Source: Prochlorococcus sp. AG-347-K16
GTDB taxonomy: Bacteria; Cyanobacteriota; Cyanobacteriia; PCC-6307; Cyanobiaceae
Direction of reading: 5' to 3'
Assembly: GCA_003281405.1 (NCBI GenBank)
Contig: QCCD01000004.1
Span: forward strand, 1 to 64,000
DNA length: 64,000 bases
The translations under genes were made by a program, and so were the position numbers. Each line of letters opens with the position of its first letter. Within the stretch, counting starts at the first letter, position 1. Below, in pieces: positions 61,116 to 64,000 of the stretch. The notes below the pieces were generated by a model, which made no database searches, was not told the DNA's origin, and saw only the letters and a program-made list of their open reading frames with translations.

Positions 61116-63182
61116 ATGGTGGATACCGATAATCGAGAAAATAGAAAATATAACATCACTGATAACGAAGTTATGAACAATAATTATTGGATTAATGGAA
61201 TCCTTGCTTGGTGGAGCGGGTTTAGTTTAAGAACAAAGTTATTAGCTATAGCAACTCTTGTCGTGAGCCTCCTAATGACAGGAATAACTTTTTTTGCTCT
61301 AAATAGTATTCAAAGAGATGCTGGAATGAATGATACTAGATATGCTCGAGATCTTGGCTTATTATTATCTGGGAATGTTACAGAATTAGTTGCTAATAAC
61401 CAAAAAAAAGAAATTTCAAATGTAGCTGAAAAGTTTTGGAGGTCAAGTAGAAACCTGCGCTATATATTCTTTACTGATGCTGAAGATATTGTTCAACTTG
61501 GGATACCGATCAGTGCAACACCCACAAGCTCAGACAGTCAGTTTCAGCTCACTCGAAGACTAAAATTGCCCTCAGAATTAAAGAAAAGACCACAATTCCC
61601 TTTGGTTAGACAGCATGCGACTCCTCAAGGTCAAGTAACAGATGTATTTGTCCCAATGTTGTGGAAGGGCAAATATCTTGGAACTTTAGCATTGGGTGTC
61701 ACCCCTAACAAAAAAGCACTTGCCAGCGCTGCTTTAACTAGAGAAGTAACCATTGCAGTTTTTATCTCCATTTGGGTTTTAGTCATACTTGGAGCTGTAT
61801 TTAATGCTCTAACAATTACTAGACCCGTTAGAGAGTTAGTAAGAGGTGTTAGAGAAATCTCAAGAGGAAATTTTAAGTCCAGAATTGCTTTACCTATGAC
61901 AGGTGATCTAGGAGAACTTTTAAATGGATTTAACCGAATGGCCACACAGTTAGAAAATTATGATGAAGCTAATATAGAAGAACTAAAAGCGGCACAGATT
62001 AAACAGCAATCACTAATTGCTACAATGGCTGATGGTGCCATATTATTGGACTCACAAGGCAAGATTGTACTTACTAACCCAACAGCAAAGAGATTATTTC
62101 GCTGGGAAGGAAGATTCTTAGAGGGTAAATATTTTTTAAATGAAATCCCCGAGATTTTATCTAACGACTTACATACTAATATAGAGTCCATTTTAAACAG
62201 GGAAAAGGAAAAAGACGATTTAAGATTCAGTTTAGGAGAACCAGCAAGAACCTTAAGAATTGTCTTGCAATCAGTTTTAGATACAAATAAAGTTGAACTA
62301 AAAGGAATTGCTGTAACTATTCAAGATTTAACAAGAGAAGTTGAACTTAACGCTGCACAAAATAGATTTATTAGTAATGTTTCTCACGAATTAAGGACAC
62401 CACTTTTTAATATCAAAAGTTATGTAGAGACCTTACATGATTTAAAAGATCAGCTGTCTGAAGAAGAACAAATAGAATTTTTAGGAATTGCAAATTCAGA
62501 GACTGATAGGTTAACAAGACTTGTAAATGATGTATTAGATTTATCAAGATTGGAGTCTGGGAAAATTGTTCAGCTAGAGCAAATAGACATAAAACCAGCA
62601 ATAGAACAAACTCTTAGAAATTATAGACTTAATGCTACAGAAAAAAATGTTTCATTAGCTCATGAAATAGAGGAAACTATTCCTACAATTCTTGGGAATT
62701 TTGATTTACTTTTACAGGTTTTTGATAATTTGCTGGGTAATGGTTTGAAATTTAGTCCAAAAAATAGCTCCCTAATGATAAGAGCTTATACTTGGCCAGA
62801 TTCATGTCCTGCCTTCCCTCCAAATATTAAAAATGATGAAGCTCCCCAATGTGAATTAGTTTCACCACTACCAAAAGTAAGAATTGAAATTGCTGATACT
62901 GGTTCAGGAATATCTCAGGCTGATCAAGAAAAGATATTTGATCGTTTTTATAGAGTAGAGAATTCCGTCCATACGGAGCAAGGTACCGGTTTAGGTTTAT
63001 CTATAGTGCGGGGCATAATTGAAAAACATGGTGGTGAGATTCGTATGGCTAGTGAATTAGGAGTAGGAACAACTTTCTGGTTTGATTTAGCTCTAGCACA
63101 ATCTGATAAAGACGAATTGTTGACAAAAGCTCTTCATAATTCGGATTCTTTTTCAGGTTCTGAAATTAAAGAAATTATCTAA
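61116..63182 (+). CDS. nblS: sensor histidine kinase NblS (Hik33/DspA)
   Basis: Membrane histidine kinase controlling light, nutrient and cold responses, including hli genes, in cyanobacteria. Two transmembrane helices (about 40-65 and 205-230) flank a periplasmic sensor; then HAMP (about 230-285), a PAS domain (about 295-405), HisKA with phospho-accepting His424 in SNVSHELRTP, and HATPase_c with DTGSGIS and GTGLGLSIV. Length 688. Its last four bases overlap the restored kaiC stop in a shared CTAA. The partner RpaB is not in the window. Confidence 0.93.
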   Translation: MVDTDNRENRKYNITDNEVMNNNYWINGILAWWSGFSLRTKLLAIATLVVSLLMTGITFFALNSIQRDAGMNDTRYARDLGLLLSGNVTELVANNQKKEISNVAEKFWRSSRNLRYIFFTDAEDIVQLGIPISATPTSSDSQFQLTRRLKLPSELKKRPQFPLVRQHATPQGQVTDVFVPMLWKGKYLGTLALGVTPNKKALASAALTREVTIAVFISIWVLVILGAVFNALTITRPVRELVRGVREISRGNFKSRIALPMTGDLGELLNGFNRMATQLENYDEANIEELKAAQIKQQSLIATMADGAILLDSQGKIVLTNPTAKRLFRWEGRFLEGKYFLNEIPEILSNDLHTNIESILNREKEKDDLRFSLGEPARTLRIVLQSVLDTNKVELKGIAVTIQDLTREVELNAAQNRFISNVSHELRTPLFNIKSYVETLHDLKDQLSEEEQIEFLGIANSETDRLTRLVNDVLDLSRLESGKIVQLEQIDIKPAIEQTLRNYRLNATEKNVSLAHEIEETIPTILGNFDLLLQVFDNLLGNGLKFSPKNSSLMIRAYTWPDSCPAFPPNIKNDEAPQCELVSPLPKVRIEIADTGSGISQADQEKIFDRFYRVENSVHTEQGTGLGLSIVRGIIEKHGGEIRMASELGVGTTFWFDLALAQSDKDELLTKALHNSDSFSGSEIKEII

Positions 63183-64000
63183 TTTTTATCTAATCCTTTA
63201 AAAACATTTTGAACATTTTGATCAGGCACAACTCTATGAGGGGCACCACTAAATATTTGTTCAAAATTAGAAAAAGAATCTTTTATTTCTGGGCCACTAT
63301 TCGTAATGATAAATTCTCTAATTCGCTTATCATGCCATGATCCCCGCATTTTAAAACATTTAAAGCTCTTGCCATCTCACCTTTTATTTCTACATATTGA
63401 AGTAACAATATCGTATCTGTAATTGTTGAGATATGAGAATCAGTTATAGAGTGACTCCCCATAAATTCTTCTGCAGTATTAGTAAAAAAGCCTGCTATCT
63501 CTTCTTGCTTGGTATAACCGGTAACAGCAATCACAAACTGTCTAAATGCATTCAAACTTACACCCCTAGCTAATGCAGAGAGAGAGTCAATTGCCATTCT
63601 TTTTGGTTTAAATTGATTAATTTGCGTTTTAATAATTTGTAAGTGATCTTCTAAACCAGTTGATTCAGGATATGCACAAATAATTTTCAATAATCCATCA
63701 CTTTCCATTTTTTCAAAATCAATTCCCCAGCTAGTCGCATTCCTTAGTAATTGAGCCCTAGATTCTTCATATGCAAAAAGTATTGCTCTTTCACTATTAT
63801 CGTAAGCATCTTCAACAAATTTTGATACAAGCATTGTTTTACCTGTACCAGTAGCTCCAGTGGCAAGAATAATGGAATCTTGAAAATAACCTCCTCCACA
63901 CATATCATCAAGATCTTTAACTCCAGAGCTAATCCTAATATTTGAGGATCTCTGCGTTAATCTCATTGCTCCAAGTGCAAAAACACTTATTCCATCCATT
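63179..64000 (-). CDS. kaiC: circadian clock ATPase KaiC, CII half, 5'-truncated by window and frameshifted
   Basis: Only the C-terminal half lies in the window; the gene continues past position 64000. The linker ALGAMRLTQRSSN precedes CII, with Walker A GATGTGKT, YEESRAQLLRNATSWG and the phosphorylation site HISTITDT whose Ser-Thr pair equals S431/T432 of Synechococcus elongatus. The uninterrupted frame goes wrong after MARALNVLK and stops at 63283. One base earlier, the -1 frame reads on as canonical KaiC: MRGSWHDKRIREFI, then IKDSFSNFEQIFSGAPHR, to TAG 63179-63181. The lesion is at the TTTTAAAA run about 63351-63357. Sequencing error, mutation, or -1 recoding are all possible. Confidence 0.9.

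Follow-up and report, generated by a model that had tools for sequence, protein, structure and literature searches.

The kaiC gene in the draft genome of Prochlorococcus sp. AG-347-K16 (37 contigs, 1.57 Mb, completeness 95.7%) carries, as assembled, a one-base deletion in a T5 run, and this deletion is private to that single genome. By alignment, the encoded KaiC is truncated at the equivalent of residues 457-458 in the S. elongatus protein. The deletion is probably an erroneous base in this single draft assembly rather than a true allele. The window referred to below is the whole stretch of DNA analysed, 64,000 nucleotides of contig C4. The kaiC site sits inside this 127 kb contig, and the neighbouring genes are open. 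The features concerned are the following.

63283 to 64000, minus strand: the part of kaiC within the window, with a truncated zero frame of 474 aa whose last 21 residues are unrelated; TIGR02655 match.
63353 to 63356, minus strand: T4 run, the site of the deletion, mostly T5 in intact relatives (comparison with relatives).
63349 to 63355, minus strand: slippery-phase heptamer T TTA AAA, made by the deletion (sequence and codon phase).
63179 to 63349, minus strand: intact KaiC C-terminal tail of 56 residues plus TAG, identical in protein to that of the four nearest relatives.
61116 to 63182, plus strand: convergent sensor histidine kinase gene with its stop TAA at 63180-63182, presumably NblS/Hik33-like.

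The kaiC open reading frame spans 64707 to 63283 on the minus strand of C4, and its start codon lies 707 bases beyond the window. In a profile search, its product matched NCBIfam TIGR02655 (circ_KaiC) with 896.9 bits at profile positions 1-440 of 484, which is above the curated cut-off of 546.25 bits and places it among the double-domain KaiC proteins. Named records with near-identical KaiC were nearly all from Prochlorococcus. Compared with Prochlorococcus KaiC (KaiC1 type, kaiBC without kaiA), this is the same gene, it lies beside kaiB, and its body and tail are close; it differs in a junction that is one base shorter than in the relatives and in a zero frame of 474 aa instead of the 509 aa found in a sister genome. 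The zero frame does not contain a complete CII domain, since the tail past the K457 equivalent is in another frame. The switch of frame occurs at 63349-63357 and is followed by a premature TAA at 63285-63283. In the coding sense, the codons at the junction are AAT (63360-63358) GTT TTA AAA TGC, and the other frame reads ATG CGG GGA TCA TGG from 63349. An earlier sequence-only reading had ended the zero frame at 63283 with 21 unrelated residues, as is confirmed in the assembly. It had also described a tail beginning with MRGSWHDK that runs to a TAG at 63181-63179; this tail is intact in the other frame, but it comprises 56 residues and not about 58.

The same reading proposed a missing A. The junction is indeed one base short of that in the relatives, but the base lost in the coding sense is a T (T5 to T4), which corresponds to an A of the plus-strand run at 63353-63356. 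Loss of an A in the coding sense was rejected, as the relatives usually have the A4 run too: among the intact copies listed, nearly all have AAAA before TG and most have TTTTT, which identifies T as the missing base. We also considered the loss of a G. The sister genome G012, which matches best when the full query of 1051 bases is considered (98%), has GTG TTT at the junction, and loss of the G from an ancestor like G012 would yield the same string. However, G205, G174 and G132 carry GTT TTT, and G205 is closer than G012 over the kaiC body (97.3% vs 96.7% identity). The loss of a T is therefore the simpler reading.

We investigated the junction across 266 genomes of the genus by pattern search. 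The intact form, GTN TTY AAR ATG MGN GGN TCN TGG, was present in 217 genomes, and the form shorter by one base in AG-347-K16 alone; the deletion was found in none of the other 265. The pattern for the deleted form detects the exact lesion only, so a genome with kaiC broken in some other way would be counted with the 48 that show neither form. Forty of these 48 had no match to the region and eight had one. Seven were inspected, including six from the eight with a match. The region matches in G136, G167, G218 and G081 end at contig ends, the match in G034 is trivial, and G065 and G112 have none. Among the 87 genomes that are at least 90% complete, 84 have the intact junction, one is AG-347-K16, one (G167) has kaiC cut by a contig end and one (G112) has no match. 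The junction was also intact in 130 of 130 junction-bearing stretches from other genomes, including 80 of 80 named loci, with many genomes entered twice in this count under two handles. Contigs of IMG/VR matched neither the intact nor the deleted junction and are therefore uninformative here. A search of the literature on Prochlorococcus kaiC frameshifts gave nothing on this lesion at the level of titles and abstract openings, and nothing was found on frameshifts in Prochlorococcus single amplified genomes. Two further observations were made among these sequences. A tail of 59 residues instead of 56 occurs in 10 of 135 tail-bearing stretches (five of the 135 are AG-347-K16 itself), and in L013 the longer tail is due to a three-residue insertion near the end. 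A Prochlorococcus-like kaiC contig (L064, CATLOT010000054.1) lies within a bin labelled Bacteriovoracaceae; its placement there is probably a binning error.

We next compared the state of the tail and body with those of the nearest copies. The tail protein is identical to that of G012, G205, G174 and G132, from which the gene differs in this part by 4, 2, 1 and 4 synonymous substitutions, respectively, with no nonsynonymous change in any. Over the 440 codons of the body, counted for G012, G205 and G174, synonymous and nonsynonymous differences numbered 38 and 5, 34 and 2, and 53 and 6, respectively, a pattern that indicates purifying selection on the kaiC body. As the tail differs from the four nearest copies only synonymously, the frame change is either very young or not real. 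The stop of the kaiC tail on the minus strand and that of the histidine kinase gene on the plus strand share 2 bases, within 63179-63182 of the window. Conservation of the tail imposed by the convergent gene was rejected, since the overlap is limited to these 2 bases. The claim that the downstream frame shows no decay, made earlier as an argument against an old pseudogene, is thus borne out by the mostly synonymous differences in both tail and body. With no further frame break seen, the broken frame of kaiC is the one feature an old pseudogene would explain, and we regard that explanation as extremely improbable.

Since the heptamer at 63355-63349 (TTTAAAA) lies in the phase T|TTA|AAA, as the sequence-only reading had correctly noted, we examined whether ribosomal -1 slippage at this site, programmed or rescuing, would produce some full-length KaiC beside the truncated form. 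The heptamer fits X XXY YYZ in the correct phase, and a -1 slip would restore the MRGSWHDK tail with Leu replacing Phe. PMC5009743 describes frameshifting that compensates for indels as a class of its own, and in heptamer and phase the junction resembles X XXY YYZ sites of -1 frameshifting; shift sites such as dnaX are named in that paper. Unlike those sites, it is unconserved, lacks a stimulator that we could find and stems from a private deletion. The shifted arrangement is present in 1 of 266 genomes; the intact relatives, with GTN TTY AAR ATG, have no heptamer in phase, and the one seen here was produced by the deletion itself. Such sites are also common. In 287 kb of AG-347-K16, T TTA AAA occurs in phase 105 times, the junction included, within 240 long ORFs that were picked mechanically, so that a few may not be genes; X XXY YYZ sites in general occur in phase 1157 times in the same ORFs. 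In a fold test that excludes pseudoknots, RNA from the heptamer onward was not more stable than its shuffles (z = +0.61; 146 of the 200 were equally stable). The 21 nt upstream of the heptamer were searched for six Shine-Dalgarno-like strings, and none was present. Thus, of what characterizes programmed -1 frameshifting, the heptamer in phase was found, and neither conservation of the shifted arrangement nor a stimulator was. Transcriptional slippage in bacteria is described for runs of 9 A or T in PMC5009743, longer than the 4 T and the 4 A present here. The earlier suggestion that programmed or transcriptional slippage yields two KaiC forms is consequently not supported. A low rate of accidental slipping would be compatible with these data, but the reason to propose programmed slippage is gone, and ribosomal slippage as the explanation is very unlikely. 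It is slightly more doubtful still that a real deletion in the wild made its own heptamer and that slippage at a low level still supplies some full-length KaiC (Phe to Leu), so that the allele persists partly rescued. Among the three options offered at the outset, an assembly error and a fresh mutation both stand, and slippage does not gain support from the genus-wide comparison (217 vs 1 of 266).

To see how many frames are broken in the assembly, 160 kb of contig C1 and the 127 kb of C4 were compared with G012 for ORFs of at least 100 aa. The 249 reference ORFs gave 219 found and 30 without a match; 209 were intact and 10 were flagged, among which the only clear two-frame split was kaiC. The remaining flags concerned stops near the start or end of the alignment (ORFs of 753, 210 and 245 aa), a stop about one third into a 108-aa ORF, partial matches without a second frame (211, 148 and 102 aa) and contig ends (335 aa, and 406 aa with the match ceasing 116 bases from the contig start). 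In the reciprocal comparison, 220 ORFs were found and 9 flagged, with one two-frame split in G012, near the start of a 128-aa ORF. A first pass over C4 with 118 reference genes (ORFs of at least 60 aa conserved in two sisters) found 97 intact, 18 without a match and 3 flagged, and added an 87-aa gene. This gene, at about 101172-101433 of C4 (beyond the window, in L140), is conserved in two sisters and is frame-broken here, with A9 vs A8 in G012. The exact A9 string occurred in one of 61 sampled genomes of the genus, AG-347-K16, in a search that required exact flanks and so does not show the state of the others. In the compared parts, both one-base indels that break a gene at the protein level are thus at homopolymer sites (T5 to T4 in kaiC, and A9 for the A8 of G012 in the 87-aa gene). 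At the nucleotide level, C4 showed 158 indels against G012 and 172 against G022, some of them within stop-to-stop ORFs. One-base gaps against both sisters were also seen at C4 46153 (in the window) and 92488 (L140), in ORFs defined mechanically from stop to stop, and neither was flagged in the protein-level tests. As the frameshift count resembles that of the sister, the rate does not separate an artefact from a real mutation.

Solved KaiC structures could be matched as far as the equivalent of residues 457-458 in chain 1u9i, which we take to be S. elongatus KaiC. The adjoining kaiB is an intact open frame of 105 aa, and a second open frame with a KaiB domain, of 384 residues, is presumably SasA. 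PMC2777353 names K457 and R459, both contributed by the adjacent subunit, among the residues holding the phosphates of ATP. The truncation, if real, would remove the R459 equivalent and all that follows it, which supports the earlier expectation that loss of the tail should matter. The earlier option of a fresh mutation had assumed a strain without a KaiA-type oscillator, and kaiA was indeed absent in seven of seven genomes, AG-347-K16 and the six relatives checked. This agrees with PMC6070526 and PMC5520375, where Prochlorococcus is described as having no KaiA and an hourglass-like timer only.

If the deletion is real and recent, the functional CII domain of KaiC would be lost, and KaiB and the SasA-type kinase would be left without an intact partner. 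This is a substantial possibility that falls short of an even chance. The position of the site within a long contig among open neighbours and the sister-like frameshift count speak for it, and with an hourglass-like timer lacking KaiA (PMC6070526 and PMC5520375) the loss may be tolerable for some time, especially under cultivation. On the other side, no other genome of the 266 shows the form, the kaiC body is under purifying selection, and the frames of kaiB and the KaiB-domain kinase are open and of normal length. Furthermore, a deleterious null allele would be rare, and encountering one among some 218 readable genomes is less likely, on a rough expectation, than a single base error in roughly 218 x 1.5 kb. 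Because 217 genomes keep the junction intact, null alleles in wild cells would be expected less often than base errors, and we lean to an artefact over a fresh mutation. Homopolymer indels are typical of both base errors and replication slips, and this weighing rests on general error and mutation rates. In the favoured case of a base error, an amplification, sequencing or consensus step would have dropped one T from the T5 run. A true allele would instead represent a very fresh loss of CII function and not a regulated frameshift.

If real, the deletion would be a natural truncation of kaiC in a genus where 217 of 218 readable genomes (those with either junction pattern) keep the junction intact, and it would help to test whether the hourglass timer is dispensable. 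These results also suggest that a private homopolymer indel can mimic programmed frameshifting where a genome is rich in A+T and slippery heptamers are common.
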